Position numbers and translations under genes: made by a program | NCBI GenBank assembly: GCA_018389105.1 | Contig: JACATO010000921.1 | Span: 124,001 to 188,000, forward strand | Origin: Nautilus pompilius | Taxonomy: Eukaryota > Mollusca > Cephalopoda > Nautilida > Nautilidae | Direction: 5' to 3' | Length of the DNA: 64,000 nucleotides | Shown here: positions 1,313 through 31,399 of the stretch, piece by piece | How positions within the stretch are numbered: position 1 is the stretch's first letter | Layout: each line of letters starts with the position of its first letter | Notes under the pieces: generated by a model | Told to the model about the DNA's origin: nothing | Database searches by the model: none | What the model saw: only the letters and a program-made list of their open reading frames with translations

Positions 1313-1315
1313 GCA
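1313..1315 (+). other. Putative 3-nt exon, alpha type (GCA)
   Basis: A pyrimidine-rich stretch with CTTTTTGG and CCAATTTTCAG ends in an acceptor AG. Three bases (GCA) and then a strong donor GTAAGTATCT follow. The matching places in modules 2 and 3 (11229 and 20073) keep acceptor and donor but have different triplets. A 3-nt exon never shifts the frame, whatever its phase. It is inferred to be one codon of an upstream sister gene, and no transcript data are available here. Confidence 0.45.
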
Positions 1316-4300
1316 GTAAGTATCTGATCATTTTTCTATTTTTATACTTATGTGTACATTAATTATTCTAAAATTGAATTAACTATATGTATTTTTCGAT
1401 ATCATCGATTTTAGAAAATAATTTCTGAAATCATTCAAGTCATTTTTATTCATGATTACTGGAAATATATTATTACTTTACTTTTAGCTTCTGTACTTCA
1501 AAAACATAATGCATTACAGTATACAATGGAAAGGATTATTCTTTCTCCATGAAATTTTTCTACCTTTTCTACTACATCATTTATTTACCTTTTAAAATGT
1601 TACAGGAAAACAAACCATTTTATATACAGTAGAAATTAGTACATTTTCCAATTTTGGTTTGGTGTATATTTAGAATTTTTAATTGATATTCTCTTTATCC
1701 TGACTCTATATCGTACAAAGTAATAAACTTAATCGTGTATGTTTTCCATATTAATATTATAATGTATTCCTTAAAAAATATGACTTCTCCAATACAATAC
1801 AGTTCCTTATTTATCATATGATGGTCTCTGTTCACTATGCAGAACAAGCTCTTACACCTTCCATCACCACTAGCTCCTTCTTGTTTTGTTGCCAAAATCC
1901 CAAAAAATTTATGCATCTGAAAGTATGCCTTTAAAAGATTTAGACCTTTTCAAAAACAATATAAATGTTATTTGTAACTCAAATACAAACAAACTCATCC
2001 TTAACAAATTCAGCATCACACACAGTATACGACTACCTAAATTCCACTTCATGACTATCTTTAATTATACTTTAGACCTGTTTCAGACTTTTAAAGCACA
2101 GTTAAAGTCATCTGAATAATCTTCAAACCCTACTCACCTGGAAAAACTTGATTTAAAATTCATCCACATCATCAACCAAATATATGCAACCCAATTGGCC
2201 TTATTATAATACAGATATAACATCCAATCCTATAACAGATTTGACGAACACATACAAACATGTGTATCATGATAGAAGCATTGGCCGGTTGAATCTAGGA
2301 TTAACCTCTATCGATTGATAAATAATATTTTTGTCAGATTCTATATCACAATCTTTCTTTTCCGGATTTATTTTTCCAATTTATTCTCAGATTTATTAAC
2401 CTATTTAACAAAATTATTATATCAGAAGGGTGGTATCCGATATGTATGTGAAACATCCTTTTACAATTTTCACTAATGTTTTCTCTATTTCTACCCGTTG
2501 TTATAAAAATATTTACAGTTTTATTTCTTTTATGATTTTACTAAAATTGTGAACTTCTATCCCCTTTTTCTCCAACCAGTCGCCTAATTATTTTAACGAA
2601 TATTTTCCCCTATATTTGCTGAGAATTTCCTTTTGATCATCAACAATTCTCCCAATTGTAACATACCTATGACTCTTCAAATAAAATTAATTATACCTAC
2701 CCGATTCTCTCCAAATTTTGCCACAAATGTATATATTTTCTCTGCCAACAATAGCTAAGATTTTTCCCTCTCAACATTCATAATACCCACACAATAATAA
2801 TTCCCACAACAAATCTTTGTATGGATAAACCGACAACAACAAGGTCCAAATCTTTTTTCTTTCTAAAATTAAAATACCTAGAACTGTAAGTACTTCTGGA
2901 AAGATGGATCAAGCCTCAACTTTACCATCTCTATAAGAATTTTTAAAATTTTAAATCGTTTATAATATGCAACATCTAATGTAGGATCTCCCGATGCAAT
3001 CCTACTGCTTTAGATAATAACATAAATAAAATGTAAGCAATCAATTTGTTTAATTAAATGTTGCACATTTAAGATTTTGCATAATATAATGTCAAAATAT
3101 AATTTAAACTCAATGCTTTTTAAAAGTATAGAATAATATTTTTTAAAATATCAAAACCAAAATCTGTTAATATGATATTTTTCTTTTGTATCTGTAAGTT
3201 CAAGATTTATAAAGATAAAATAAAAATTTATGAAAATAAGAATTGATTATTTACATATTTTATTCTACATTTTTATTACTTTTGATGTTTTATGAATTGG
3301 ATGCTGAAAATTACAGGTGTTTGATCATTATTGAAAAACCTGAGATCACTGCTGCTGTTTACATTTATAAAAGAACCTTTTACTAAAATAAAATGAAACA
3401 GTCTCTAATAATTATAATAATTACATATTCAGAGCTAATTAGATGCTCACAGGTTGTACAAAACCACAAAAAGCTATATACATAATTTTCAATTAATATA
3501 TATGTTAGTTACCTTCTTATAGAGCAAGGCATTACTGGCAATCAATATCCATGCTTATATAAAATTTGTTTGTATATTCTTTTGTAACAAAGTTATAAAA
3601 CTTGGACGAATTCAATTGATTTTGTTTAACAAATATTTGGATAAATTAGTAACAATCAAAGTTTAATTTTTCTCTTTCATTTTCACACTAACAACGTTAA
3701 TAGCGATATATTTGAAACAAACCAATTCTTTAAATTGCTTGTTATATCTCACTGCAGAATTATTTCCAAATTGACGTTGCATAATCTAAGCTTTGGTTAG
3801 TTTCTTTAAAATAGCATTAACATATTTGAAGATTTTTATAGATAATAATTATTACTTATTTCTTGATCAGTTATAAAAATTAATTTAAAGAATGAGTTAA
3901 AGATCTGGTTTAAATATGAATATTCACCTTTATTTATTCACTTTCCGAAACAAATAAAAGGATATTTATAAAAATAACTCCATAAATTATATATATAATT
4001 TATTCTCCATTGTCATTAATATTTGCATTATTTCATTATCTTTAGACAAGTAATCTCAGGAAGAGCAAACATAATTCAAATTGGAATGCTTTTTATTTAC
4101 ACTCACTGACAAAGTTTTTCATCTTTGTAGATAACAAAATATATTTTTTCAGATCATGCTCATAACATAACACTGTGCCAGAGAATAACTTATATATTTC
4201 ATCTTTGGATACTTTTAATTTTGTCACTTATTTTAAAATGATAAAATTTCTCATCAATCATGTCATGTTTTGCATATTGCATTAAATATTTTTGCATATT

Positions 4301-5779
4301 TTGGTTTGTACAAATAGCAATGCAATTATCATATGGAAAAATCAGTGCAGTAATAAAACGAAGATGTCAACTTTACATTGATATCCAAATGTAGTTAGAT
4401 AGTTTGAACTGGATGAAGCATCAGTTAATGTTCAAAAAGAGCTACGGATTTTCATATTACTTTTTATTCAATCAACGAAATAGTTTAAAAATAAAAATAT
4501 ATCATTAATTTTTTTAAAATTTTGATGGGAAATCCAGCCTGTATCTGAAGGTTAATTTTATTTGCAGTTACCTGGTGAACCTGGTGCTGCTCGGAGAAAA
4601 TAAGAGAAAAAAATTTATCTTGTGAAAAACAGATATTTTATTTTTTTAAACGCTCATTTATTGAATGAACATTAAATATATTCTAATGATATATTTCTCA
4701 ACAATTTATAATCTGTATCCTTACATTTAACTTTTTTTCCCATAAGAGCCACATTATAGAAAATGACTTTATATTTTCGTGAAATGAAAATTAAAATAGT
4801 TTTTCTCTTTTTTTGTATTTGGCTTCACTCATGATTATAGGAAACCTGCAGTTTTTGGCTTTTAAATGACCTTTCAGGAAACTTTTGAAAATTTGGAATC
4901 TGTGGGTTCTTTCGATTTGAAAGAGTACCATGAATTTGCAGTAAATCTGAATGTTGAAAAGTGGCTTTGTCAGTATTAGAGACCAAAATCTGGTATCATG
5001 GGTTCCAGACATTTAACCTAGTTTTTTATTATAATTTACAACTGCTATTTTGTCTAATTTTAATGTGTGATGTGAACTAAGTGATATCTAAAACGCTTTT
5101 GAAATGCAACTATAGTTGGCCACAGAACTACTTTATAGTCCAGCATGCGGTAGCTTAAATCCTTTCCAAAATTCTGAATTCCAAATATTTTAATCATGTT
5201 ATATTTCATGATAATTTAAATGTAGGAATTGAGATTCTTAAATGTAAAAAAATAAAGAAATTAACTAAATCATCTAATGAAGATGAATTAGTCTGCTTGC
5301 ATTAACTTAACAAAGCAGCTTTTGTTTCATGAAACAAGGGGGAAATTTCAAGTAGACAAATGCTATTCCTTAGAATTCTATTACTTCAGTTATGAATCCT
5401 GACACAGATTTTAAATATTGACCTTTTAATTAAGGTTTGTGAAATAACTGGCAAGGACCAATAATAATTTGTAAATATTTATTTTTCCAACACTTTGTAT
5501 TACTATTTAATTAATGAAGACAGTTGCCAAGATTTACACAATAGTAGATGGCATGGTGAAAAAAATTATACAAATAGTTTGCTAATGATTGCAGAATACA
5601 ATTATAGATAAATATTATTATCCATGATAATCATGAATGTATTTGATTATTTTAACATTTAAAAACATGTTAGGATTGTAAGTGCTTGTTAGTAATTGTA
5701 CACATTTCATTTATTGGAATACATAACCTAATTAAATTTTAATAACTGTTCCATATTCTAACTGGATGCAGTTTCAAAG

Positions 5780-5782
5780 TGG
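5780..5782 (+). other. Beta-type 3-nt site with damaged donor (TGG)
   Basis: This is the module 1 version of the beta site. A branch-point-like CTAAC lies about 20 bases before the acceptor (TTTCAAAG), followed by TGG. The donor reads TTAAGTATCT instead of GTAAGTATCT, so the usual GT is lost in this copy. A GT one base upstream could still be used but would give a 2-nt exon and shift the frame. It is probably a dead copy. Confidence 0.4.
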
Positions 5783-7131
5783 TTAAGTATCTGTCATTTC
5801 ATCCTTTTTTTACTTTGTGTATTCACCTTTCAAATAAATAATTTATCATCAGATGTTTAGAATATAGGCGGCACTTTGATCAAAAAAGGTTTGAAATTAT
5901 AACATAATTTTGTTGAAAATGTGTCCAAAAATATTATTTTGTTCATACAGGAAGTATCTATTAAAGATAATAGATATATCATGAGTTTAAGAGGAGCTCA
6001 TCCTTTTTCTCAAAACAGTAGGAAATCATAGTTGAGTGCCAGTTGAAGGGGCTACAGAGTAGATTATCTGTGTTTGACAAAATAGTTTCTCTAATAAATA
6101 GAATTATTCCTTCATTTAGTATTTATGCAGCTAAACTCAATTCATCTATGATTCTGTTACTAAAAGGGAATAAATAATAGATAGATAATATATTTAATAA
6201 AATTATTTTATAATTAACATTTTCTCTGATCTGTTTTCAAATAGTAATTTATCTAAATCATTTATAAAATAAATAAATATTTTATATATCAATAAAGTTA
6301 AATTATACATGTATTTATATTATCATTTTGGTTTAAGGTAAATTCAAACTTTTGTACAAAGTAGAGGAATTGAAGATTATCAGTTACAAGGTAAAGTTTT
6401 GTAGAATGATCAATATTTAATAATTACACATTTCCATATATAGATTTATAAATAATATTGACCAAAGAAACATGTATTCATAAGACAATGGCACAGGGCT
6501 ACAGATCTGCTGAATTTGATGAAGTAAATTTTTACATAAATATTATATAAACCCTAGAATATAGAATTCATTTTAATTATCTAATTAGTATGCACATATA
6601 TTTCTATAAATTGTCATTAATGAAGAGTCCTATGAATTCAAAATTTCAAAAAAGATTGCCATTTATTTTGTTGCAATTTAAAGCACTATGGAAATGTGTA
6701 ATCTCTCATTTAAAATGAACGATTAGATACATCAGCATTAATTTTGTTTACCTTAGAACTAATCATATGAAAAACTAAATTAAACAATGCATTTGATTTA
6801 ATAAATATAAACCTTGATAGTTAAACAACGGAATCTGATTTTGTGCATTTATTTTCACTCTCCTAACATTATTGGAACACAACAGAAGCCAAATCTTTAA
6901 ATCAACTTTCTATCATTAATGGAGAAAACGTTTAAATTTTTTAATGAGTTTTTAGGATTCTGTTCGTGTTCCAAAATAAAATTTAAAGATTTTATAGTTT
7001 ATACAAAATAATAATTAATAGTTGGGATACTATTTGATTAGTTCTTATTTACATATTTTTATTTTAAATATATATTAATTAACAATAATTTACCTGCTTA
7101 CCCTAAAGTCTGCCTTCGGAAGATAATTATA

Positions 7132-7355
7132 CAGGGTGTTCGGAAAGTCACTGTGCACTTTTCAAATCATATTTTTTTTATATTTCAGATTTTGATCCCA
7201 ATATGGTTTTAACATCTGAAGAACTTGTATTGATGCTAACGGGGGTCACTTTCAACATTGTTTATAATTGTCATTCATATTTACCTCCTGTATTCTATAT
7301 TGAAACATGTCTGTTAATAAATATATAAGTGTACAGTGACTTTGCGAACAACCTG
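7132..7355. mobile_element. Short mariner-type MITE
   Basis: Terminal inverted repeats of about 25 bases: the left end starts CAGGGTGTTCGGAAAGTCAC and the right end, reverse-complemented, starts CAGGTTGTTCGCAAAGTCAC. The left flank is TA. The right flank is CA, probably a mutated TA. The element is 224 bp and codes for nothing complete. The related place in the right-hand module (about 62940-62970) lacks it, so the insertion came after those modules split. TIR length, TA target and the GGTGTTCGGAAAGTC motif fit non-autonomous mariner relatives. Confidence 0.75.
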
Positions 7356-7868
7356 CAGCATTGATCAATTGATTTATAAAACTGTTTCAAAAGCTTATAT
7401 TAATATATTCTGCAATCATAAATTATTAATATCATGAAAATCATTGATTAATAATTAAGGAAATTTTTGTTGAACTATTATTTAATTTTGTTGACTACAA
7501 TTACATCTTCTTTCATTCTTCCAATTAAAGTTGAAATATTTTTAAATATCCATCATTTTTTCTGAATACACTTTTGTGAAACTAAGATACAAAATATTTA
7601 TTTTCTAAATTTATCATTTCATTCATCATGCATTAAATAGCAGTATACCACAACATATTAAACCAATCTATGCTTTAATTGGCACATTTAAGGACATCTC
7701 AGTGCATACAAGATTCATGAACAAATTGAATTGTTGCAGTCATTTTTTTTAAAATAAAGGTCAGGTTTATTGGTTGTCATTAATTATTATTTAATTTTAT
7801 TTATCGAATGTCTCAAAATTAACACAAGTATATGCTTTTTCTTATTCTACTTGGATCCATTTAAACAG

Positions 7869-7871
7869 TAT
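7869..7871 (+). other. Putative 3-nt exon, gamma type (TAT)
   Basis: Acceptor CATTTAAACAG, three bases TAT, then donor GTGAGT. The site aligns with two sites in module 2 (16829 and 17560) that also have exactly three bases between AG and GT. The shared spacing in diverged copies supports a real splice unit over chance, but this copy has a less pyrimidine-rich acceptor. Confidence 0.4.
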
Positions 7872-9522
7872 GTGAGTAACAAGCATCTTTCCATTTGTGT
7901 GTGCAGTAAAGTTTTTTAATAAATATTTACTGTCTTTGAAGCCTTGCTTAGCCGTTTCTTTATATATTCTTTGAAATGGAAATCTTAATTACTTTATATT
8001 TACAAAGTATCCTTAAAATTCATCTTGCTTATATCAGATGCATTTTTAAAATTTAATACATCATTTTATCTTGTATGGAGGAAGTATTACTTTTTCATTT
8101 AGCTCATAAATTTAAAGGCAGTGATGTTTTTGATTATCGCAAGGCAATCTTTGTACTACATTAATTTCACCAATAAATAATACAAAATGTTGCTTTCTTT
8201 TAGAAAGCCTAGATACAGTCTGACCTATATCTGGTATAGATTCCTCTAGCAAATATTTCAAGAAAGTGCAAAGAAAATAAGAGCAGCCTATTTTAAGATA
8301 AAGACTACGTTAAAATGCTTGATGAACTATATTCAAATAATAATTAATTTAACTAAATGGAATATTTTCCAATAAATGCAACAATTTATATATAGACTAT
8401 ATAAAGCATTTCTTGAACTATAAGTCCATGATTATTTCAACTAAATGCATTGTTGAAATTAATATGAAAGTTAGAATTTATTTTTCAACATAAAATATAG
8501 TCTTTTACAAAATTAATGTTAAAATTTTTCATTCTTTTTTTCAAAAAATTACTTTTGTTTAATTTGCTTTATATATGTACAAATTAACAAATAAATCTTG
8601 GTTCTTTAGATTCATCAAAATGTTAGACTTGCTATTAATTGAAGTGGAAGCAGATTTACTAAACTTGATAAGATAGATCTTTAATTGACATAACATAACA
8701 TATCAAAAGCACTGTAAGTAGTATTATTAGCTAATTAATACTCTCATCTTGATTTTAGTCTAGACATTTAAGGGAAAATATCTTAATATTTATTTGGATA
8801 TAGTAGAAATATTGTATACTTTTATGCAGAATAAATTATTACTGATATATAAAAATATATGTTTATATAATATTATTTCCTATCACATGCTTTTGTATTT
8901 AATTTATTATCTAATTTTTCTAAAATAAACTTAATTAATTTAACTTAATAGATTAAATTTTAACACAATTTATAAATAAGATAATTATAATTATTCTACT
9001 TTTAGAATTATTCTCCTAATATTTAGTGAACATGACTAACTGAAATTTTAAATTACATATTTGACTATAATAAAATATTTTAATTTTAATTTGAGCTTTG
9101 TTCGTTTCGTATGCTTCTTAAGACATATTAGCATATTTAATGATTTAAAGTAAATAATTACTAATAATTGTTTACTCTCCTGTAAGTTATATTATATTAA
9201 TATCTAACTTTTAGATGACACACACACACTCATATGTGTACTGAATATTACAATTATATCACCTGATTAATGTAAATAACCTGCCTAAATTATTTAAAAA
9301 TAAGTATTTTTCAGAGTAACATAGCTACACTTATGCAAAAAAAAGGGCTCAACAACATTCTCAGCTGAAAATTTTCTAAAAATATAAATATTTTCTTTTT
9401 GAATACTAGATATGTTTACGGATTTTAAAGGAAGTACTTATGCGCTTTTATTTATAACAAATGCATTTTGTTATAGTACTGGTCATTGAATTTAATTTTG
9501 CTTCGTTGCTCTCATTAATTTA

Positions 9523-10499
9523 ACGTAAATTCCGGCGTATAAGTCGATGTGGCGTATAAGTCGAGGTTATAAATTTGGCCTAAAAATCCTGATTTTGAGA
9601 TGTACCTGTTGTATAAGTCGACCCCTTCTCTGGCTCAAATCGCTTGGTCGGAATATTTCAATAATCAACTGCGTCATTTTCGCTGACTCATTCTTACGCT
9701 TCGCTGCGCTTTCACTCATGTGATGTTCACGTTGATTTATTTGTTTCGCCAGCAAAACATGCTTGCTTGACAAATAAGGCTTTCACTAGAAGAAGAAGTG
9801 TCACGTTTTATGCACTTTACAGTTCCTGTCTAGATTATTTATTGATTTATTGATTTATTGTCTAGAAATTTATTGATTTTCTTTTATCCGGTGTGTCTAA
9901 CCTTGCTATGCTTAGCTAGGAAATTTCAATTTACAAATTTCAGTGACAAATTTTCAAATAATTATAAATCGTTGAACAAGCAAGATGTCCGGTCAACCAC
10001 GAAGAAGGATGAAATATGATGCAGCATTCAAGATAAAAGTCGTTCAAGCAGCCAAAGACAGTAACAACAGCGCAACAGCTCGGCATTATTGCATAAGTGA
10101 AAAATTGGTCAGAGATTGGAGGAAGGCAGAAAACGGTATCAAAGAAATGGCTTCAACCAAATGTGCGAATTGTGGTCAAAATCAAGAAAAATGGCCAAGA
10201 TTAGAGAAGGAAATAGCAACATGGGTGTTATCTGAACATCAATGTGGCAGAATCGTAACAAGAGCCCTTATCCGACTGAAAGCTTTACAATGGGCAGCTA
10301 AGAATAAAGAAGACAGCATGGATTTCAAGGCAACAGTCAGTTGGTGTACCTGTTTTATGCATCGTCAAAAGACAAAAATTGCTCAAAAGCTACCGAAAGA
10401 TTTACGTCATAAAAAACATCACCGCCGTATAAGTCGAGGGTGGATTTTTAAACTTGAAATTTGGTGTCAAATTTTCAACTTATACGCCGGAATTTACGG
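9523..10499 (+). mobile_element. Pogo-like DNA transposon, internally shortened
   Basis: A 977-bp element flanked by TA. The ends are inverted repeats of about 23 bases, containing GTAAATTCCGGCGTATAAG on the left and its complement on the right. The core GTATAAGTCGA recurs just inside the left end (near 9537, 9553, 9611) and near 10425, as expected for subterminal transposase binding sites. It encodes one open frame that covers only a DNA-binding region (see 9985-10506). Module 3 keeps the unoccupied site near 19340. The size is well below that of a full pogo element, so it cannot move by itself. Confidence 0.85.
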
Positions 10500-10506
10500 T
10501 ATTTAA
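9985..10506 (+). CDS. Pogo-type transposase N-terminal DNA-binding fragment
   Basis: The open frame is 173 codons. Residues about 8-50 (RRMKYDAAFKIKVVQAAKDS, then ARHYCISEKLVRDWRK) match the Brinker/pogo helix-turn-helix. Residues about 66-135 (RLEKEIATWVLSEHQCGRIV, then ALQWAA) match the CENP-B-type second helix-turn-helix. The catalytic DDE domain that normally follows is missing. After about residue 140 the frame reads into the right subterminal repeat and terminal inverted repeat, giving a nonsense tail of about 30 residues. The ATG follows AACAAGCAAG and is the natural family start. The product, if made, could bind element ends but not cut them. The remaining frame is intact, so the loss was by internal deletion and not by gradual decay. 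Confidence 0.8.
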   Translation: MSGQPRRRMKYDAAFKIKVVQAAKDSNNSATARHYCISEKLVRDWRKAENGIKEMASTKCANCGQNQEKWPRLEKEIATWVLSEHQCGRIVTRALIRLKALQWAAKNKEDSMDFKATVSWCTCFMHRQKTKIAQKLPKDLRHKKHHRRISRGWIFKLEIWCQIFNLYAGIYGI

Positions 10507-11228
10507 ATTTTACATTAAATTTAGTGTAAACATATTAATTGTCAAGAACATCATCTGTAAACAAAATGGTTTTTTAAAATAAAACAATGGTGTAAAGTCA
10601 GTTATACCAGTTTCATCGAATGTTTTTTAAACATTCTTAAATGGATTCTCACTATTCAGTACATAAGGATTTCCACACCGTTATTGTCATCCTTGCCAAG
10701 ATCTGAGATAAATTAAATATATGGTAAAATAAAATGAAGAGAACATTAACATAAAAATTTCCTGGTACTTCAAAAAGTTATGTTGTTTCTCAGAAAAATT
10801 TGTGATTTTAAACCATGTGAATGCTTTTGCTTAACACATTTTTTAAATAGAAATTATTTTTGACTTCTTATTTCTTAAAGCAACAATCATGAAACTTTTG
10901 TGAAGAAATTTCTTCATATTAACTCAACATGTTTTAGTGGAGTGAATTAACATTCGGATAACCTGAATTAATAATTTCTAATAAAAATATAGAATACCAA
11001 TATAAAGAGTACGAAATATGCTCTACAATCTAATTTAATAATTAAAAGTAAAAATGATGCACATATATTACATGATATAGACATAAAAATATATATTTTA
11101 TAGTTTTTCTAAATAATCTTCAGGTCATTAGCTTGTAATTTTTATTAGTATACATTGCATTCAAATATATTATTTAATATTTACACAATGACATATTTAT
11201 CTCAAACTTTTTGGATCCAAATATGCAG

Positions 11229-11231
11229 CCA
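11229..11231 (+). other. Putative 3-nt exon, alpha type (CCA)
   Basis: Acceptor CCAAATATGCAG, triplet CCA, donor GTAAGTATCT. This is the module 2 counterpart of GCA at 1313. Flanking sequence on both sides is well conserved with modules 1 and 3, while the triplet differs in each. The upstream CTCAAACTTTTTGG is the polypyrimidine region. Confidence 0.5.
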
Positions 11232-12509
11232 GTAAGTATCTATGCTTAATCCATTTTTTCTATTTTTATACTTATGTTTTCAATAATTGTCATATAATTC
11301 AATTTACTATAAGTATTTTACAATATGATGAGGGATTTTCTAAAATATTTTCTGAAATTATTACTCACTGTTAATTATAATAAAATACTGGAAATATATT
11401 ACTTTACTTTTAGCCTATGTATTTCATAATGCATTGTATTATACAAAGGAATGAATCAAACTTTTTCCAAGTAATTTATTCCTACTTTTTCTTCTAAGTT
11501 ATTTTTAAAACCTTTTTGTACTTTTTTCCATGAATACATCAAATATTCACTAGTAATTTGTACAATATTTCCCTTTTTGATTTTGTCTATACTTTACATT
11601 TCAGATTAAAATTTTTCATTTATCATGGCTCTATACTGTACAATGTACCATACCTCATATTTGTTCTCATCATTAACCTGATTATGTAATCTTCAAAGGA
11701 CAAGACTACTCTAATAAACTGAACACTCTGATAATTTTCATATGACCATGCCCATTCAGTATAGTGAACAAGCACTTATACCTTCCATATCTCCTCCCCA
11801 TCTTGGTTTCTTTCCATGACCAGAAAATTTATGCATTTTAAATTAAAATATTAAAAACATTTATACCTAATCAAAGAAATTTTAATGTTATTTGATATTC
11901 AAAAACCCCAAACACACCTTTACAAAATTAAACATTGCAAACTATATTCTACTCTCTAAATTTCACTTGAATAGTATCCTGAAATCATACATAAAGAAAT
12001 ATGAATATTCTTGTAAATCCCAAACACCATGAAAAACTTGGCTTTATTATCTTTTACACCATCAACCACATAAATAAAAAGATTCTCTCAAAATGGCCTT
12101 CCTTAGATACAGACATAGTAACAAATCTAAAACAGATTTGAAGGAGGCCTCCTCATGCCTATGTTATTGAAGATTTGTCCGCTTGAATCTTGGAAACCCT
12201 ATATCGTATTATAAATAATATTTACTTCGGAAAAAGCATAGCCAGCTTTCTTTCTTGGATTTATTTCTCTGATATACATAATGAGATTTATTAACCTAAT
12301 TAACAAAATTATGATATCAGACTGGTCACATCAGATCTGTATGTCAAACATCCTTTACAATTTACACTAAAGTTTTCCATATATTTGCATTGTTGTTATA
12401 ATAAAACATTTCATTTGATTTCTAAAATTTTTTACTCAAAAATGGAGAATTATTCCCCCTTTTTCTCCAACCAGTCGCTAAATTAATATAAAGAATATTT
12501 TCCCCTATA

Positions 12510-13520
12510 CAAGGCCTGTCGAAAAGGTATCCGACCTTGAAAAAAAAATACGTATTTGGTGGGGTTAAATTGCTAATCCCCATTGAAGTAGGCCCCTTGT
12601 GCCTCCACACACTTAGCCCAGCGATCCTTCCACTGTTTGAAGCATGTCTGGAATGCTTCATCCGGAATGGCACTCAGCTCTGCCGTCGCATTCTGCATGA
12701 TGTCCTCTCAGTTCTCAAAGCGGGAGCCTTTCAGTGACATCTTCAATTTTTGGAACAACCAGAAGTCAGAAGGAGCTGTGTCTGGAGGGAATGGAGCCTG
12801 GCAAATGAGTGAAATGCTTTTCTTTGCCAAGAAACCTTGGATCAGCTGTGACGAATGAGCCAGTGTTGTCATGATGCAGCTGTCAGTTTTGCGAGGCCCA
12901 CAGATCGACTGAGCTTTGGTTTCTGGGTTGTACCCATACACCCATGTCTCATCTCCAGTTATCACAGTATTCTGGAACTGAGGATCCCTGCTGGCAGTAT
13001 CCAGCAGGTCCTGCGCAACCTCAAGACGAAGTTGTTGTTGTTCCTGAGAAAGCAGCTTGGGCACAGCGCAAGCCCAAATCCTTCTTTAAAATTGCATGTG
13101 CAGAATCTTTACTGATCCCAAGCTCATCACCAATTTCCTGCACCATCAAACAACGATCCTCCATCATCAACGTCCGCACTTTCTCGAGAACAATTGCATT
13201 GCGGCTTGTTGACGGCCTCCCGGAACGTTGGTCACTCTCCACCAATGTGCGGCCATCTTTGAACCTGTTTTACCATTCTTTAATTTTGGTAACACCCATT
13301 GTGGTTTTTGGCGAGCTTGCTGGATGCATTAGTCACTGTCAGGTAGCCAGCGTGTAAGGTGCTGTACTACTTACTCATCACATTTTCATTTCACCTGTGA
13401 TGACAGAACGTGTGGAGCAATGATCTTGCATCGCGGCTCCACTATGCACACTTTTGCCTCCCTAACGTCATTACTTCCCACAGGAAAAAGTAAAGTCGGA
13501 CACTTTTTCAACAGACCTGG
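12510..13520 (-). mobile_element. Decayed mariner element
   Basis: A 1011-bp element bounded by TA on both sides, with imperfect inverted ends of about 28 bases (left CAAGGCCTGTCGAAAAGG, right complement CCAGGTCTGTTGAAAAAG). It codes for transposase on the minus strand. Module 1 keeps the empty site CCCCTATATTTGCTGAG near 2608, and here the same words flank the element, so TA duplication is directly visible. Full mariners are near 1.3 kb, so about 0.3 kb is missing internally. Confidence 0.9.
12708..13380 (-). pseudogene. Mariner transposase, broken
   Basis: Two minus-strand frames carry the protein. The N-terminal part (13021-13245) includes ESDQRSGRPSTSRN and a helix-turn-helix region (VQEIGDELGISKDSAHAIL). 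The C-terminal part (12708-13064) contains VITGDETWVYGYNPETKAQS, with the first catalytic Asp, and PPDTAPSDFWLFQKLK, with the third Asp, typical of DD34D mariners. A frameshift near 13050 separates the two. An internal deletion joins the region after ETKAQS almost directly to the second-Asp region, where HHDN is readable only in another frame before AHSSQLIQGFLAKKSI. It is inactive. Its closest kin are likely the arthropod mariners with the same WVYGYNPETKAQS signature. Confidence 0.85.
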
Positions 13521-15623: not shown

Positions 15624-15626
15624 TGG
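15624..15626 (+). other. Putative 3-nt exon, beta type (TGG)
   Basis: A branch-point-like TTCTAAC sits about 20 bases before acceptor TGCAATTTCACAG. TGG and donor GTAAGTATCTGTC follow. This is the best-looking of the beta sites. Counterparts: 5780 (donor damaged), 23999 (TGG), 26306 (ATG) and 61463 (CGG, in the right-hand gene). There is no other AG between the branch point and the acceptor, so a longer exon is not supported. Confidence 0.5.
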
Positions 15627-16828: not shown

Positions 16829-16831
16829 AGA
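16829..16831 (+). other. Putative 3-nt exon, gamma type (AGA)
   Basis: Acceptor ACATTTTATCAG, triplet AGA, donor GTAAGTATCTAGC. A second copy of the same segment sits about 0.73 kb downstream (17560), and module 1 has a third (7869). All keep three-base spacing with different triplets. Confidence 0.45.
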
Positions 16832-17559
16832 GTAAGTATCTAGCATGTTTTTATTCTATATTATATCTATTCTTTTCTACAGTAAAAAGTATTAAAAAGT
16901 TATTTTTGTTGTTTTTTTTTATTCCATCATCTGAGACTTAAAGATATTTTCGCCGAAAGATACTTTCCATTTTACATTTACAAAGAGATCAGAGAAAATT
17001 TATCTAACCTATACTACCTGTCATTCTTAAATATAATGCAACATTTTTTCATGTAGAAAGAAATTTATACTTTTTCATTGAGCATAAATTTAAAATAAAT
17101 AATGGGACTTATATGTGCAGAAATGTTATCATTCTTTAACAAAATGTTTTATTAATAAATTCAACAATCAGTTTATTATGTTGCCTTTGCTGGGAAACAA
17201 AATGACTTAATAAACCTTGTAGAAGAAACAAAATTGCAGCACAGAAAATATTAGTCCAATATCTGGTATGGAATCACTCCACAATTGTAGCAGATAAAAT
17301 AAGAACAATATTATTAGGAATTTGACTAAGTATAGCTGATTCATGTTAGTTGTATGGATCACTATATTCCTTTTGCTTCGTTTATGTCCATTGAGTATGT
17401 GTAATTTTATAATTTTAATTGAAAACAACAGTAAAATATACATAGTTTCTTGTCTTTCTTTAATTAATGAAGAGATTATTTTGTAGATGTCATCTCATTT
17501 TCAAAAAAAAATTTAAAATATTAATACAGGAGTATATTTTTTCTGATACATTTTATTAG

Positions 17560-17562
17560 GAG
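17560..17562 (+). other. Putative 3-nt exon, gamma type (GAG)
   Basis: Acceptor ACATTTTATTAG, triplet GAG, donor GTGAGTATCTAGC. It arose with the AGA site at 16829 by a local duplication: both are followed by TATCTAGCATG and a T-rich stretch. Confidence 0.45.
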
Positions 17563-18614
17563 GTGAGTATCTAGCATGTCTTTATTTTATACTCTATTTT
17601 TTCTACAATAAAAAGTATTTATTATTCTTAGAAATCTTGTGCTTTCTTTATATTTATAATATATCCTGAAAATATCGTGTTACTTTTATCAGACGTATTT
17701 CTTAAATTTAATAAATCATTTTTTCATGTAGGGAAGAAAATGATACTTCTTATTTAGCACAAATTTAAAGGCAGTGGTGGTTCTGAATGCTTCAGAAAAG
17801 CTTCTATTTGTTTCACATTACTTTTCACCAATAATGTTGGAAGTTTTTGATTTCTTTTAGAAAGGCATGGAACAGTTTGACAAATATCTGGTATAGAATC
17901 CTCATGCAAATATTATCAAGTGCAAACAAAATAAAGCAATATATTTTAATTTGCTTTATATATGAATAAAATGAACTTGGTTCTTTAAATTCTTGAAAAT
18001 GTTAGACTAGTTATGACTGGAAATTGAAACAAATTTGCAAAATTTGATTGATAAATCATTAGTTCTCATAATATAAAACATCAGAAGAACTGAAAACATT
18101 ATCTTTAGGAAATTAATACTTTCATTTTGAATTTAGTGTAGACCTATAGGAGAAAATATATTAATATTGAATTTAAAGTTTGTATAAAAATTGTTAACTT
18201 TTATGCAAAAAAAATTATTACTGGTTTATAAAAGCTTTTTTTATTTAAATTAATAGTCCCTATCTTTTGTTTGCATTTAATTTAGGAACTTATATGCCTT
18301 TTTAAAAATAAATTAAACAATTAATTTCTTAGATTAATTTTTCTCACAATATGTAATCAGGAAAATTTTAATTACTGTGCTTTAAAAGTATTATCCCAAT
18401 ATTTAGTGTTTAATCCCTGGTACATGTGAATAACTGAATCTTTAAATTACGTATCTGACATTACTAAAATCAAAGATTAAATTTTAAATTGTGATGTCTT
18501 AATTATGGATGTTTTTTTAAAAACATATTAGCATGTTTAATTATTTATACTAAATAATAACTAATATATGTTTAATATCCAGTCATTTCATTCTACTAAT
18601 ATCCTAACTTTAAG

Positions 18615-18671
<57 letters not shown>
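18615..18671. repeat. Microsatellite (TA)n followed by (CA)n
   Basis: A run of TA repeats passes directly into a run of CA repeats. The equivalent place has a short TA run in module 1 (about 295-309) and a short AC run in module 2 (about 9219-9230), so one ancestral simple repeat has taken a different form in each module. Confidence 0.9.
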
Positions 18672-18672
<1 letters not shown>

Positions 18673-20072
18673 TATTGACAATTACAATTACCTCATCTGA
18701 GTAATGAAATACACTGCTCACATAAAAATAAATATTGCTCGGAGTAACATAACTAAGATTTGATAATAGGTGTGGATATTAACCTTTATTTAGAATTTAT
18801 TGAAAACATAAACATGTTTGCATTGAATACTTTGATATGTTTTCAACTTTAGATTTAACTTAAATATTTGTATCTGGTTTACTCAGTATTGTCTAATGTA
18901 TATATATATATCTATATTTCAAATTTGAATTTGATCCATCATCGCTAAAAAAATTGCATTATTTTATAAAATAATAAGAACATTACACTTCAGTCATTTT
19001 TATTTAGCAATATTATCATTAATTATGTGGAAAAGAGCAGTGAGGATTACAATAAATATAAAAATAAAACATTTCATCTAAATTTATCTAATATTATTCT
19101 AATGCAAAAAATTACCCATTGCTGTTCAAAGAGCATTATTGATTCTATCTATCTACTTATCTATCTTTCACAAAAACATAATTTGATATTTAATCTAGAT
19201 ATTAACATTAATAAGATTTGTATCAACTCTTATTGAAGGAAGAATAACATACATTGTTGCAATTTTATTTCTAACAAATTCTTTTTGTTAAGGTATCGGT
19301 TTTAATTCATTTTCACTTCATTGACTTATTTATTGTATTTAAATTTTACATTAAATTTGCTTTAATCCCTTTAATTTTGAACAACAACATATGAACACAA
19401 ACGCGTTTCTCGTAAATAAAACTTAATGGTAAAAAATAGATCTTATCCGTTTTAACGAATGTTTTTAAAAATTTTTTAAATGGATTCTCAATTTTCAGTA
19501 AATGAAGAGGCCCATGCAGTTATTGACACTCTAAGCCAAAACTCAAGATAAAGGAATTATATTATATCTTGAAGAGAAGATTAACAAAAATGTCTTTCTG
19601 GTAGTATAAAAAGTACTGGTATGTCATAGAACAAAAATGTGATTTGAAATTACTAGAATGGTATTACTTAAAACAATATTTTAACTAGAAATTATTTTTT
19701 GATCACATATTATAGCAATGATCCAGAAACATTTGTAAATAAATTTCTTCATATTAACTATATATATATATATACATATTTGTTAGGAATAAATTAAATA
19801 TTTAGATATCCTGAATTAATAATTGCTAACTTAGAATAGCAATAAAGAGCAAGATGTGTATTTTAATATAAGCTATTAATTTACCCCAAAAATAATGCAT
19901 ATATATATTACATAATATAAGAAACATAAAACTGTATAGTTTTATCATCTTTTTATAATTAATGAACAATCTTTATGGTTTCATTTGCATTGTATAGACT
20001 GCAGTTATCAATATTCTTTAATATTTACACATAGACATATTTATCTCAATCTTTTTCGTTCCAAATATGCAG

Positions 20073-20075
20073 ATA
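20073..20075 (+). other. Putative 3-nt exon, alpha type (ATA)
   Basis: Acceptor CCAAATATGCAG is identical to that of the CCA site in module 2. Triplet ATA and donor GTAAGTATCTATG follow. The flanks match module 2 almost base for base over about 40 bases, while the triplet differs at two of three positions. Confidence 0.5.
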
Positions 20076-23000
20076 GTAAGTATCTATGTTTAATCCACTT
20101 TTCTATTTTCCTACTTATGTATCCACTTAATATGCTTATTTTACGCTATGATCAATGATTTTTTAAAATATTTCTTGAAATTATTATAGTCATTTTTGGT
20201 AACAATATTTACTGGAAATATATTATTACTTTTAGCCTTTTTACTTCATAAAACTATTTCTTTGCATTAAACAGTGGAAAGGTTCATACTTTCTCCTTAT
20301 TTATTATTATATTTTGTTCTATTTTATTTTACAACTTTTTTTACGTGTTCCACGAAAAATTCACCCTTTTCATATAAATTAGTAATCAATGCAATTTTTC
20401 CTTTTTTCCTTTGGTATACATTTTAAATTTTAAATTGAAATTTTACCTTTATCCGGAATTCAATCTTTACAAAGAAGCATACGTACTTGTTTGTCCTACC
20501 AATATCCATGTCTTGTAATCTTAAAAAACTTGATTACTGAAATACACCATACACTTCCATATTTTTCATATGACCATTTCCCTTTACTTCACTCAATACA
20601 GCACTTAAAATATTCCTAGACACTCATCTCCATCATGTTTTTTCCAAGATCCCAAACATTTGCATCTGAAAATTCTATATTAAAAAAATTTATATCTATC
20701 CAAAAACCTATATAGATATTATTTGTAACTTAAAAACCTCAAGATAAGTTTAAAAACATCAGCATCACAAACCATGTGCAACTCCCCAAATTTCACTTGA
20801 AGAGTTCCTTATATATATATTTTAAACCTATTTCAATGTTTTCAAAGCAAAACTAAACGAAATTTGTATATAATGGAAACCACCAAAACACTATAAAAAT
20901 CATGGCTTTAATATCGTTTACAACATCAACCATATATATACAAAGAATCTCTCAAAATGAGATTCGTATGATAAAGATATAACATCTAAACCTAAAATTA
21001 ATGTGATGGAAGCACGCTTACGATTGTCTCCTAATATAAGCTTTGGCCAGTTGAATCTAGGACTACCCTATATTGAATTTTAAACAAATTTTTTTTTTGG
21101 ATTGTACATTGCGTGCTGACCTTTCGGGATTTATTTCTCCAATAAATTATAGGATTCATTAAATTATTTAACAAAATTATCATAACAAATGGGTGGCATC
21201 CAATTTGTATGTCAAACAATACAGTTTTCAATAAATTTTTGTCTTTTTACGTTGTTGTTATAAAAATACTTTCCATTTTATTTCTTAAATGTTTTTACTA
21301 AAATTGTGGAATTGTATCCCCCTTTTTGACAAAACAGTCGCTCAATTTTTTCAACAAAAATTTTATCCTATATCTACTGAGATTTCATGAAAAACATCAG
21401 CGATTTTCCAAAATATGTAACACATACCAATATCCGTCCATATGTAATTAATAATACAGTATATATCTGATTCTCTCCAAACCTTTACCACAAATTTAAC
21501 TATTTTCTCTTCCAACCTTTGCTAAAATTTTCCCTTTGAACATCAATATTAGTCATCCATTAATAATTCCTACAACAAATCTTTGTGTGGATAAACCGAA
21601 AAGTGCATGCTCCCAGTCTTTTATCTTCCTAAAAATAAAACACCGGAAACGACTATGAGTACTCCAAGAAAGATGGATCAAGCTCAATTTTACCATCTAT
21701 ATAAGGGTTTCTTACTTTTACATCTTTTATAAAATCCAATATATATAATGTAGGGTATCCCAGGGCAGTTATACTGCTATAGATAATAAAAGGCATATAA
21801 TGTAATCTGTCAATTCATTTACATAAGTACTGTGCATACAAGATTTTGCATAACATAACATAAAACGATAATTTAAAATCCCCGTTATTTATAAAAATAT
21901 AGAATATGTTCCTTCCAATATAACTAAATGAAATATCTTAATATTACGTTTTTTCCATAAGGTAATCATTTTTAAGGATACAAATACATGAAAATTATAA
22001 TTGATTATCTTTTAATTTTCTATAATAATTTTTTTTACATTTGGAATTTTAAGAATTGAATCTTTAAAAACTGTTTTTTAATCAATATTTTCAAAACCAG
22101 AGATGGCTTCTCTTAAGTTTATACTAAGTAGCATAAAAAGTCTCTAATAATTGCATATTCAGCAAAATAGTCACTCTCATTTTGTACACTAAAATGAAAC
22201 ACTAAAAAAGGTATATACTTACAATTAAGATTAGTATATATATATATATGTTAGTTACCTTCTTATAAATCAAGGCATTACTGGCAATCAATAACAAAGC
22301 TTATATTAAAATTGCTTGTAATTAAATTTGAAACAAATTTTAAAAAATTCAACAAAACAATTCATTTTATTCCATTAATATTTGGTTGATTTAAATTAGC
22401 CAAAATATTTTGATTTTGTGGTTTCATTATTAAAATAATGATGATGAGGGTGGCATATTTGGCACACTAAACAAACAATTTCTTTAAATCGCTTGTTTGT
22501 CCTCAATGCAGAATAAGCTTCAAAATGAAGTTGCATGATCTAAGTTTTGATTAGTTTCTCTAAAATAACATTAACAAATTTGAATATTTTTTAGTGATAG
22601 TATGTATAAATTTTTTTCTGATCAGTTATAAAAATTACTCTAATGAATCAAGTTAAACTACTGAAAATAAAAGTAGATATTCACCTTCTATATTTATACA
22701 ATTTAAGAAACATTCAACATTTAATTTCTGAAAATAAATCAATATCTAAATATACAATAAATCTCCATTATGTTTAATATTTGCAATATTTTTAATATCA
22801 AAGGGCAAACATAATTCATATTGGAACACTTTTTAATTACATCTATTTACAATATTTTGCATCTCCTTAAATATGACAAGCAATATGTATTTTCAAATCT
22901 TGCTCATAACAAGACACTGTGCCAGTGAATAACTTCTAAATTAATTTTTTGAATACTTCCAATTCAGTCACATATTTTATAATTTATATTATTTCTCATA

Positions 23001-23998
23001 AATCATGCCATGTATTTGCATGTTGCATTAAATATTTTACAATTTTGGTTTGGTCAATTAGCACTGCAATTATAATTTGGAAAAGGAAAGTAAAGTGTGA
23101 ACACAAAGGTATTAAACCATATATTGTTATCCAAAGGTATGCAGATTTTATAAATTGTATGAACCAGCAACAGAAAAATTTGATTTTGATAATTAAACGT
23201 AACTTTGGATTATTATATTAATTTTGAATCATTCAACAAAATAATATCAAATAATTAAAATTATACATGAATATTTATATATATATATATTTTTTTTTTA
23301 ATGTGAATTCTACCCTGTACATCAAGGTCAATTTTATTTCCAGTCTGACAAGACCAGTGCAATAAATGTTTTCAATATTGCTTTGAAATGCAAATTTACC
23401 TGGCATCAACATAGCCTTGAAGTCCAAAATTAGTTAGCTAAAATCCTTACCCAGATTCTCAATTCAAAATATTTCCATCAAATTATATTTCGTGAATATG
23501 TACACATATGTACTGACATTCTTAGGTGTTAAGAAACAATAAATAAATTAAGTAAATCATGTAATGAAGAAGAATTATGCCATTTAGATTAACCTATCAA
23601 AGCAGTTGTTGTTTTTTGAAAATCCAGAAAAGTTTTAAAGTGGGGAATGCTACTCCTTAGATTTCTGTTACTACTCTTGTGATTCATGATTCAGATTTCA
23701 AATATTTATGTTTTTATTAAGGTTTTTCTATTAAATGGTAGTGAAAAATAATCATTTGTAAATATTTATTTTTCCTACAGCTTTTATTGGAGGAAATTAT
23801 ACAAATAGCTTTCCCACTGATTTTTGAATACAATAAAGGCCAAATGTTAAAATCTCATGATAATTTCAACAAATTTAAAAAAGAAAACATCAGGATTGTA
23901 AGTGCATCTTAGTATTTATATATTTCTCATTTATTGGAATAATTAACATAATTAAGTTGTAATAATTATTCACTTTCTAAATGGATGCAATTTCATAG

Positions 23999-24001
23999 TG
24001 G
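23999..24001 (+). other. Putative 3-nt exon, beta type (TGG)
   Basis: Acceptor GATGCAATTTCATAG, triplet TGG, donor GTAAGTGTCTATC. The branch-point-like TTCTAAATGG is slightly decayed compared with TTCTAAC in module 2. Downstream text (ACAGAGTAGTTGCTCTTTGC near 24133) matches all other beta sites, including that of the right-hand gene. Confidence 0.45.
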
Positions 24002-25149
24002 GTAAGTGTCTATCATTTTATCCTTTTTCTACTTTGTGTATTTACCATTCAAATAAATAATTTAACGTTTAGATTGTAAGCAGCATTTACTTTAAAAATT
24101 TCTGAAAATAGAATCTGTTTTAGTTTATATGGCTACAGAGTAGTTGCTCTTTGCTTGACAAAATTGTTTGTCTAATAAATACAAGTACTTTTTGTCCTCC
24201 TGATGTTTATTCAGATAATTTCAATTTATTTAAAGGAGCTGTACAAAGACAACAAAATTTTGCAAACATAATCGGGAATATTTAGGTGCATATCACATCA
24301 CAATAATCATTCAGTTATTACAAAAGAATAAATAGAAGATGAATAATATACTTACTATAATTGTTATATAATTAATCTTTTCTATGATATATTTTAAAAT
24401 AATTTGTCTAAATAAATCTTGAAAATAAATGTTTTATTTACTAATAAAGTCATGTTATACATGTGATTACATTATCATTTTGGTTTGAGGTAAATTCAAT
24501 CTTTTGTTTAAATTAGATAAGTTGTTAATTATGTATTATCAAGTAACGTTTAACTGTTTTAATTAATTAATAATAAAATATTTTTAAAATTTATTATGAA
24601 TAATATATACCAATGAAAACTGCTTTGATAAATTTTTTTAATAGAGGCTGAACTTGCATAAAACAGACAAAGTTGCAAAGATACAGATTGGCTGACTTTG
24701 ATGAAATAACATTTTACAAATATATTATAAAATCCAGGAATATAGAAGAGAGTACAATTATCTAATTAGTAGGAATATATATTTCTTAAACTTGAAAATA
24801 AATAAAATACCTATGAATTCAAAATTTCAAAATTGAATGTTGTTATTTTGTTTCAATATAAAGCAGTATCACTACGTATAGTCTCTCTTTTAAAATAAAC
24901 AATTAGTTTAATATTGCCATTTGTTCTGTTTACCAAAGATCTAATAGGAAAAATTAAAATAAGCAATGAATTTCTCTCCATAAGTATTAATTTCAGTGGG
25001 TATTCGACTTTTTTGCTTTTATTTACACTCTTCTAACATTATTTGAAAAAAAATTCATCAACTTTAATTCAAATTCTCTCATTATTATTGAAAATGTTTA
25101 AAATTTACAAAGAATTCTTTAGGATTTTGTTGACATTCTAAAATACCTT

Positions 25150-28100
25150 CAATCCAGTCAAACATTTCATGTTATATAAATGTTTTTTTAAATTATGCAC
25201 CTACATGTTATATTCTTAGTTTTGGTCAATCTGCAGTGCAATCATCATACTAGAAATTTCAAAGCATTATGATTGCAACAATTTTAACTCTCACTATTAT
25301 CCATGTTTATGAAGGTTTCTTTAACTTTCTGAAGCAAAAAATGCAAGATTATTGCTGAATTTTCTGCAAATGATTATCGTATTTCTTTTATATTAAAACA
25401 TTGATTAAATAGATACTATGTAAATTTGTATCATTATATATTTTTCCCATTTTGATATTAATTTGAAATTTATGTCGAGGCTGCATTTATTTTAAATTGA
25501 AGATATAACGTGTTGCATTTATTTTTCTTTCTATTTTAACTGATTCATTTTTACTATCGTAATATTAAGTTTTTTATTTCTATTTGTTGAAGTTTAAATA
25601 AATAAATCTGTAATTAAAACGCCTGCAATTTGATTTACATTTTACTAGGTTTTATGCGAAATCTTTTCTCAACTAAAGCTAAAAAGTAAATTTTTTCCTC
25701 CATTGTCATCTAGTGATTTCTCATAAATTTTCTCAAAATATTTACATCAGATTATGTCTCATGAAAGTGTGCATGTAAATAATGACACTCATAGACACTA
25801 AGTAAAATAAGATAAATAACCAGATCATGTATAGAAAGATAATATTATTAATCAATTTTACCTAACAAAACAACAGTTGCTTTATGAAACCGCAAATAAT
25901 GTTTAAAGCTGACACGTTACTCTTTGTAATAGTATTATTTCTGTGGTCAAACATTACTCTGATGTTTAATATTGATGTTTTTCACACGCTTGCTAATTAT
26001 CTGGAAGTAAACAATAATCATTTGTGAATATTTATTTTTTCCTACTTTTTGTATAGAACATGATTAATAAGTTATTAATTAATTAGAGGAGACAGCTCTG
26101 AACAATAGCAAAATATAATTATAAATAGGAGCCATGAATAATTTATCATGATAAGCAGGATTTATTTGATTATATCATTATTTTTAAAACATTAAGTCAG
26201 GATTGTTTTAGTTTGTTATCAATTGTATACTTTTCATTTATGGAATATATAACCTAACTTAACTGTAATAATTGGACTCTATTCTAAATGGATGCAATTT
26301 CATAGATGGTAAGTATCTGCCGTTTTCTAATTTTTCCAGTCTGTGTATTCACATTGAAATAAATTGTTGAAGAATGATGTTTAGGCTATCACCAGCATTT
26401 TACAGAAACTTTATTGAAATTATTACTTAAACTTGATAAACTGTCTTCAACATTTCATCTGTTAGTTCATATGGTACACAGTAGCTGCAGCTCCTCTGGC
26501 AAAATTGATTCACTAATAATACTGTCGATTGTCCACTTTCTATTTATGCAAATGAAGTCAGTGAGAATAACGGGCCTATTAAGAATATACAAGAATTTTT
26601 TTCAAAAAATATTGAGGTAACATTAAGTGAAGAATCAAGAACGGGAATCATTCTGTTGGAAAACATAATAACTATAATGTGCAATATATTTGCTAAAATT
26701 ATTTTATAATTAATGTTTTCAATGATTTGATATCAAATAATAATTTTGTCTAAAATCTTTTCACGAAACAAATAAATGTTTAATTAGCAATATAGTGTAA
26801 TAATACATGTGATATTATTATCGTTCTGATCTGACGTAAATTCAAAATGTTTGCTCAGAGATGCAAAATTAATAATTATGAACTTAAATAACACTTAAAT
26901 ATTTATTCCAGTAATTTTCATATTTACAGATTTTATTTATAGTTTAAATAAAAGTGCTAAAGATTTTTTTTTAAAATCTGAGATTAGCAATTAACAGATA
27001 AGCTCCTATGACTACAGATTTTCTGACCTTGATAAAATAACTTTTGAATAAAGTTTTTAAAAACCTGAAAAATACAAAATGTATATGCAGCTAATTTGTT
27101 CGCATATATAGATAGGAACCATGTCAGCAAAGAGGCATATTAATTATTTTTATTAGAAAGTGGTTTACTTTATTGCAATGAAAAGCACTATTATTAGGTA
27201 AAACCATTCATTTAAAATCAACTATAAAATTTATAACGGATATAACTGTTTCAACTTTAGGACTAATTATAAAATAGTTAATTTAACCAAGTATTTATTT
27301 GCATAAATATTCGGCTTACTTAAAGAAAACCAGATTGCAATGCTTTTTATTTTCACTCTTCTAACATTTAGAATACCATCTTGGGATTACATTAGAAACC
27401 AAATTTAAAATACCAGTACTGCCAAAAAGTTTCAATTTTATGTTTGCTTTCCTAAGCTTTTTAAAATAACATTAATTTACTTAATGTTTTTATACTAAAT
27501 AATAACTAAACTTGTAATCGATGTGATCACATTGATTTATTAATATCTTAATATTAATATCTAAGTTTATTGAATGATTAGTAATTTTACTTCATTAAAA
27601 TAAATACTCGTTTCAAATATTTGTAGATAAAAATTGTTATGATCATTAAACTACATTTAACCTTCTCTGTCTAGGATTTTAAAACTTGAAAATTATGTTA
27701 ATAATACCAAATCTATTGTCAAATATTTATTATTTATCTTTCGAAATTCAATATTTTCTATTAGTTAATTAATGTCTAGATCTCACAGCCAGGTCAAAGG
27801 TTATCCATTACTCTAGATATATTAATAAAAGAATACACTTGCCAATGAACTAATCGATAACAAAGAAATGTCTGTCTTTTGAATACTTGCAAATGATTCA
27901 AATTTGTCATAATTTATATTGCTTGTTCGAATATTATTTATTAAACCTAAACTTTCAAATTGACACACTTTTTAATTTTGGATATTTTTTATGCTTGTGG
28001 AAATTCATCAGGGTGCAGGCACATAAACAAAGAAACTTAATTTTTATTAATATTTATCAAGTCTGTTTCGAATTTATTATGGAAAAGTACAAAAATTTAA

Positions 28101-30933: not shown

Positions 30934-30940
30934 TAAATAA
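30934..30940 (+). other. Degenerate gamma-like splice site
   Basis: TATTCTATCTGGATAAAATTATACAG aligns with the gamma acceptor region of module 2 (TATTCTATCTGTATAC..CAG), and GTAAGTATTATG aligns with the donor. Here seven bases (TAAATAA, with stop codons) separate AG and GT. It is probably a decayed copy. Around it, 29.8-31.4 kb holds nothing else I can identify. Confidence 0.25.
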
Positions 30941-31399
30941 GTAAGTATTATGAATTTTATCTTTATATACTATCAAATCTTGAGTACCTTAAATCAAATA
31001 CAAATTATTTGCTTTAATAGTTTCAATAATTGATCATGTTAATTCAGAAGAGTGTTTTTGTCGTGAATTTGACAAAGATGTTTTAAATGTTCACAGTCAG
31101 TTATCTGCAATTTTTGAAAGAAATGACAATTTGTGATCTTAAATAGAGATTACTGACTTGTAGCTATACATATGTGCCTGATAATTAGGGACTATAAAGC
31201 AGACTACATATTAGACATAAGGAAAGGTATCTATTTATTTTGGAATCTGCTATAAAAAATCATTCTATTTGGTTTATTTAGTAATTGCATAAATTATATT
31301 TACCAAAATTGTTTGATTCATCAAAATATCTACTTATAAACTTTTACTGATTTTTTCCTTATTCATTAATTTTGCACTAACAGTTTGTTACTCACTGTT

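Follow-up and report, generated by a model that had tools for sequence, protein, structure and literature searches.

Candidate genes of Nautilus pompilius in which series of three-nucleotide exons would assemble small secreted peptides codon by codon

Genes composed largely of tiny exons have been described in schistosomes and aphids, and here we set beside them a stretch of 64,000 nucleotides (nt) from Nautilus pompilius (assembly GCA_018389105.1, 727.6 Mb in 2558 contigs; contig JACATO010000921.1, 1.19 Mb and hereafter C878, positions 124001-188000), in which three-nt exon-like units recur on the plus strand. We call this stretch the window and give positions within it without prefix; positions on the contig carry a prefix or are named as such. 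The micro-exon genes (MEGs) of schistosomes, as set out in the open text of PMC10526429, encode secreted products, lie in gene clusters and contain tiny exons mostly a multiple of three in length (10-20 per gene; the text gives 6-81 bp and the abstract 3-81 bp) with introns of 0.1-5 kb. For the bicycle and megacycle genes of aphids, the accessible text of PMC9168663 describes many signal peptides, many tiny exons, internal exons of the same phase and internal duplication. One megacycle gene has 118 exons in ~100 kb and encodes 2092 amino acids, nearly all bicycle internal exons begin at codon position 2, and some bicycle homologues lack the CYC motif, so that loss of the motif alone is not excluding (PMC9168663).

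Single exons of 3 nt and of 1 nt can also be spliced. The isolated examples in the open portions of PMC8042270, PMC4674806 and PMC7392893 are mouse Ncam, Drosophila TnT and homothorax, and a 1-nt exon in Arabidopsis APC11, and for a 1-nt exon a model combining intron definition with recursive splicing was proposed (PMC4674806). As described there, such microexons stand singly in otherwise ordinary genes, whereas those considered here come in series. At the ratchet points of Drosophila, according to the accessible text of PMC8605326, acceptor and donor are juxtaposed, a strong donor is regenerated and the intron is removed stepwise; these points are of zero nt and as a rule leave nothing in the mRNA, whereas here three bases lie between acceptor and donor. 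In the open literature searched, with subscription papers outside the search, no series of single-codon exons and no single-codon stop exon was described.

We consider it highly probable that the window belongs to a tandem cluster of genes encoding small secreted prepropeptides, which would be transcribed, assembled codon by codon by splicing and then cleaved, a reading that draws on gene anatomy, homology, constraint, strand bias, frame arithmetic and synonymous-only change at some units. Neuropeptide and venom prepropeptides carry a signal, a pro-region, a Lys-Arg (KR) cleavage site and a terminal Gly for amidation, and those known are, to our knowledge, encoded on ordinary exons.

The initial annotation had listed ten units on the plus strand of the window, each an acceptor AG, three bases and a donor, with nine donors intact, and its coordinates proved exact: AG precedes the triplet in 10/10 units and GT follows it in 9/10, the exception being the unit at 5780. 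Class alpha comprises GCA (1313-1315, in gene 2 of the models below), CCA (11229-11231) and ATA (20073-20075). Class beta comprises TGG at 5780-5782, 15624-15626 and 23999-24001 and, by sequence, ATG at 26306-26308; class gamma comprises TAT (7869-7871), AGA (16829-16831) and GAG (17560-17562). All are candidate single-codon exons except the unit at 5780, which in its present form can probably not be spliced. An extended donor common to the classes had been proposed as well, and GTAAGTATCT is present exactly in six of the ten units, with variants at 17560 (GTGAGTATCT), 23999 (GTAAGTGTCT) and 7869 (GTGAGTAACA). The pattern AG-NNN-GT[AG]AGT[AG]TCT occurs eight times on the plus strand of the window, never on the minus strand, and in none of 60 first-order Markov sequences. 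The shorter AG-NNN-GTAAGT, for which about one chance occurrence per strand had been estimated, is found eight times on the plus strand (the unit at 61463 included) against 0.6 expected, and AG stands 3 nt upstream of 10/26 GTRAGT sites on the plus strand and 0/17 on the minus strand. A profile built from the ten units matches those ten at E <= 6e-8, by construction, and its only other match over the inclusion line is at 30908-30943.

Three tandem modules of ~9 kb, ~70% identical, lie in the window (16-9216, 8937-18616 and 18310-27400), and the stretches with alpha and beta units rank among the most strongly conserved parts of the modules, though not alone in that. The unit at 26306, a beta copy by sequence, nevertheless stands opposite gamma units in the module alignment. 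Shared ancestry of the three classes, suggested earlier, holds up: they align over +-300 bases, and identity between classes is 90% in AG and ten donor bases, 47% in the flanks and 18% in the triplets. The classes look like old duplicates of one unit. The argument from conserved spacing to function likewise gained support, AG and donor showing 6 changed letters of 120 against a mean of 52 and a minimum of 23 in a neutral simulation on the flank tree, with 0/2000 runs as conserved as observed; the simulation assumes a consensus-bearing ancestor, uses ten copies first picked by motif and leaves out homologous stretches whose motif no longer works, such as the inverted copy at 46.2-47.5 kb. This copy of a beta and an alpha unit (46173-47511, minus strand) has decayed splice signals and serves as a natural control. 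Three beta units are preceded, at a distance of ~100 nt, by a conserved GTAAGTGC (5678, 15522 and 23898); it may be a regulatory donor or the donor of a short intron.

The central idea of the initial annotation, a series of single-codon exons, is supported at the level of sequence, whereas its span of 25 kb for a single gene was too small: the units extend over much more than that and appear to belong to several tandem genes. Around the window we covered 304 kb (C878:4001-308000), of which the window takes in gene 2 over its 3' third and gene 3 over its first exons. Across this neighbourhood, AG lies 0 to 9 nt upstream of the 163 plus-strand GTRAGT sites in 7, 4, 1, 90, 8, 8, 1, 6, 3 and 2 cases, respectively, and upstream of the 75 minus-strand sites in 5, 3, 3, 3, 4, 1, 1, 4, 1 and 3. 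The 25 kb with the ten units form part of a plus-strand array of 86 units that pass a strict rule, and the gene models are incomplete because only such units are listed in them. When acceptor and donor matrices, trained on those 86 units themselves, are scored separately, 83 pairs have length 3, every other length from 0 to 60 has 0.18 pairs on average, and the minus strand has none at length 3. The unit consensus is tttTtTtTggATccAtTTacACAG-NNN-GTAAGTATCTA, in which the successive exon bases carry 0.12, 0.05 and 0.46 bits of information. Strict units are separated by introns of 123 to 9913 nt, whose median length is 2693 nt in gene 2, 211 nt in gene 3 and 182 nt in gene 4.

Five putative signal-peptide exons lie on the plus strand of C878, at 31828, 68715, 177800 (window 53800), 241167 and 293008. 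A TATA-like box precedes the ATG by ~55 nt, and the end of the exon always falls after codon position 1. The predicted first exon of gene 3 runs from its ATG at 53800 to 53860 and is followed by a 15-nt exon 2 (56189-56203), a 29-nt exon 3 (57111-57139) and an Arg unit, CGG, at 61463-61465; exons 1-3 and this Arg translate to MKVSLIISALLLCFSISICSGDNLQEQTNENSLNKR. The 15-nt exon is present in genes 3 and 5. The 29-nt exon occurs in genes 2, 3, 4 and 5, where it is open from codon position 2 and ends in Lys at a complete codon. Since this exon is entered in phase 1 and left in phase 0, each 3-nt unit after it would be one codon. The next unit is a homologous Arg in genes 3, 4 and 5 (CGG, CGC and CGC), which together with the preceding Lys would form a dibasic KR site. 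Another copy of the 15-nt exon lies on the plus strand at 41634-41648, within a duplication that yielded no signal exon, and a 9-nt exon at 43592/56840 was considered and dropped for its weak donor. Near the window end, an alpha-like upstream flank (63671-63988) has its own unit, CAA, at C878:188005, just past the last base.

From signal exon to stop, genes 2, 3 and 4 contain 20, 29 and 27 strict units (for genes 3 and 4 with the stop unit included), and from stop to the next signal exon 0, 0 and 2 (contig position 268475 and, within a decayed array, 284390). The strict chains read RAIQEINSPDWPAPWREIWM in gene 2, RQQQQGQGQGADMVDKSDVEAMIEAHKG-stop in gene 3 and RQKGAII, 18 Pro, G-stop in gene 4. 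The chains of genes 3 and 4 both finish with a TGA unit (C878:212509 and 267848), a 3-nt exon of its own, and the homologous terminal unit of gene 2 is TAAATAA (30934-30940), whose first codon is a stop. One of the 29 units in gene 3 and one of the 27 in gene 4 is a stop, and it is the last in both; the penultimate unit is Gly in both (GGA and GGG). Read in frames +1 and +2, the chains of genes 2 and 3 contain stops. Among homologous units, some differ only synonymously (Arg CGG/CGC/CGC, Gly GGA/GGG and Pro CCA/CCG, with stops TGA/TGA/TAA), while others change the amino acid, for example alpha GCA/CCA/ATA.

The Pro cluster comprises 20 units, CCA (18) or CCG (2), with flanks 71% identical, in a set that keeps only units starting with CC plus two with weaker donors (contig positions 257456 and 260238); the unfiltered unit list has only Pro units between 255287 and 262657. 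The 18 strict Pro units of gene 4 are mostly 150-190 nt apart. Other local duplication is seen in CAA units at contig positions 188676, 189006 and 189335, which alternate with GGA at a period of ~330 nt, and in a 3 kb stretch at 194.8-197.8 kb that is 93% identical to 201.6-204.6 kb. A decayed array at C878:278100-286250 provides a second natural control: its donors are degenerate, TAG stands in the place of the penultimate Gly, and a fourth homologue of the stop unit, at 286.1 kb, has no AG. No signal exon was found for this array.

In the gene plan that we propose, a signal-peptide exon would be followed by a short pro-region (the 15-nt exon where present and the 29-nt exon ending in Lys) and then by 3-nt phase-0 exons supplying the Arg of the KR site, the mature sequence and a final unit that opens with a stop codon, with Gly as the last residue before the stop unit in genes 3 and 4. 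New codons would arise by duplication of an exon-intron unit, as in the Pro units of gene 4. The acceptor and donor of one 3-nt exon are probably too near each other for simultaneous binding, and sequential, ratchet-like splicing would be likeliest because so short an exon could hardly hold both complexes together. The acceptor would be used first. Joining at its AG would leave NNN directly before a very strong donor, GTAAGTATC; the donor so regenerated would then be spliced onward, each step adding one codon. With its extension to +8/+9, this donor is presumably complementary to the U1 5' end and to the U6 stretch before ACAGAG.

The units could alternatively be recursive-splicing waypoints of long introns, the three bases being incidental or later removed and no codon being selected. 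Acceptor and donor nearly adjoin, as at the Drosophila ratchet points, the donors are strong and many introns are kilobases long. Yet the spacing is 3 and not 0 (90 vs 7 of 163 GTRAGT), onward splicing from the regenerated donor would retain the triplet, and waypoints are unneeded in introns down to 123 nt, as in genes 3 and 4 with their medians of 211 and 182 nt. Codons are also favoured by the purely synonymous change at the Pro, Arg and Gly units and by the stop triplets in final position, and we judge this explanation very unlikely.

Similar units were found elsewhere in the genome. Eight loci (L001-L008) were chosen for their match to the pattern and hence form no background sample. Contig C590 was sampled at two stretches around pattern matches, where 7/7 (668001-677500) and 7/10 (619001-629000) plus-strand GTRAGT sites have AG at 3 nt; minus-strand GTRAGT is absent from both. 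The units are TGT, TTG, CCA, TCC, TGT, AAA and AGT in the former, and ATG, TAT, TAT, GAA, TGT, AAG and a doubtful AAG at 620415 in the latter, where two of the seven triplets end in AG, so that AG is also found at 0. Two C590 TGT (Cys) units, ~42 kb apart, have flanks alike by eye, and 13 pattern matches on this contig are grouped in strand blocks over ~207 kb. No convincing signal exon was located in either stretch. On contig C399 (15001-24900, 9.9 kb), 4/7 minus-strand GTRAGT sites have AG at 3 nt, with units AGA, GGA, GGA and AGA; this stretch probably belongs to the same cluster as C878, because its units are, by eye, closely like those at C878:5374 and 7882.

Could the units be a repeat, a satellite or a DNA- or RNA-binding motif unrelated to splicing that contains AG-NNN-GTAAGTATCT by chance? 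Such an origin would suit the dense arrays, whose units are mostly 150-190 nt apart and ~70% identical. It would leave unexplained why constraint falls on AG and donor while exempting the three bases between them, why the donor extension fits U1/U6 pairing, and why the arrays are bounded by signal exons and stop units. The C590 units, moreover, share the spacing and strand bias, although the 9.5 kb piece at 668001-677500 gave no blastn match to C878. We regard this explanation as extremely improbable.

Several observations weigh against the prepropeptide reading as a whole. Signal peptides were judged by eye and by a simple hydrophobicity rule. In gene 1 neither exon 2 nor exon 3 was found, and in gene 4 no clear exon 2; there are only 3 strict units before gene 1 and 4 in it, and gene 5, viewed over 15 kb only, holds 1. 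The chain of gene 4 is open in all three frames. Stop triplets are not depleted, with 3/86 observed against 3.9 in column-shuffled triplets (P(<=3) = 0.40), and after this shuffle we dropped the absence of stops among the triplets as a proof; stops are informative by position, not by number. Genome-wide, the bare 15-base pattern is not above its reversed control (110 + 44 vs 122 + 129), and the signal lies in clustering and strand. The first unit found in gene 2 is Arg (CGA, contig position 80983) without shown homology to the Arg of genes 3-5, and Gly before the stop unit was not seen in that gene.

Gene 2 further has the broken donor at 5780, no GT donor at its 15-nt exon, and a terminal unit of 7 nt rather than 3 nt. 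Together with two transposon-like insertions in its introns, these features favour an explanation in which the architecture is real and gene 2, which holds the ten units, is a decaying copy whose peptide is no longer made. Against decay, 0/20 of its strict units is a stop, its signal exon and 29-nt exon are open, AG and donor are conserved beyond neutral expectation, and the 15-nt and 3-nt units could be skipped without change of frame. We see decay of gene 2 as possible, if on balance unlikely. Both insertions lie in module 2: at 9976-10506 (plus strand) an open reading frame (ORF) of pogo/Tc5-like helix-turn-helix type with Pfam matches, and at about 12510-13520 (minus strand) a mariner-like relic judged by eye, whose ORF piece at 12708-13085 had no Pfam match.

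By analogy, the nearest known kind of gene would be the schistosome MEG and, in layout, the aphid bicycle/megacycle gene. As in MEGs, most exons of the prepropeptide genes proposed here are tiny and a multiple of three (the 86 3-nt units and the 15-nt exon; exon 3 is 29 nt), and the first exon, in five copies, bears a putative secretory signal. Exon 2 has 15 nt, which the open text of PMC10526429 gives as the commonest MEG exon length. Unlike MEGs, these genes hold up to 29 strict 3-nt units of one codon each, plus a stop unit. An aphid bicycle gene was suspected from AT-richness and microexons and was dropped, since the array is in phase 0 with one amino acid per exon, a start at codon position 2 being confined to exons 2-3, and since PF00379 was unmatched. 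PF00379, an arthropod cuticle family, had no match in the genome, which is weak as a test given that 14 control genomes were also empty. With respect to the CYC motif, the strict units of genes 2-4 include no Cys, and one Cys unit (contig position 268475) follows the stop of gene 4. The likeness to neuropeptide and venom prepropeptides lies in the signal, the pro-region, the KR site and, for genes 3 and 4, a mature sequence that would begin with Gln and end with Gly.

Elsewhere in the window, an ORF of 97 codons at 36844-37133 follows a fair acceptor and precedes AATAAA; it was at first taken to be the terminal exon, but its homologue at C878:26791 carries stops, and it is only possibly a 3'-terminal or 3' untranslated exon of gene 2. 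Zero-length sites at 32155 (AG/GTGAGG) and 40311 (AG/GTAAGA) resemble recursive splice points. A repeat family at 33595-35389 and 48623-51238 has direct and inverted copies with ORFs of ~70-110 amino acids, for which a scan of the plus strand gave no Pfam match. Pfam (E <= 0.05) likewise matched nothing in the plus-strand frames of 27401-64000; within 1-27400 the scan covered ten ORFs, which were also the extent of its minus-strand coverage. Rfam at the gathering score and a tRNA scan returned nothing. No convincing long conserved ORF was seen in the modules, and U12-type introns, entertained only as an idea, were set aside.

More tentatively, the loci of the cluster may be members of a genome-wide gene class, with at least two loci on different contigs, in which splicing would string mature secreted peptides together residue by residue. 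Each unit would be a phase-0 cassette that could be included or skipped, giving a combinatorial peptide library, and such genes would evolve through duplication of exon-intron units rather than by point change alone. If this is true, exon size would effectively have no lower limit, even in series: one transcript would require the recognition and ordered joining of 20-29 single-codon exons in a row, a demand not anticipated by exon-definition models. Genes of this kind would escape usual annotation and splice-aware alignment, and whole gene families may therefore be hidden. If true, the finding would also allow sequential, ratchet-like splicing to be tested directly, together with the idea that splicing generates peptide diversity.

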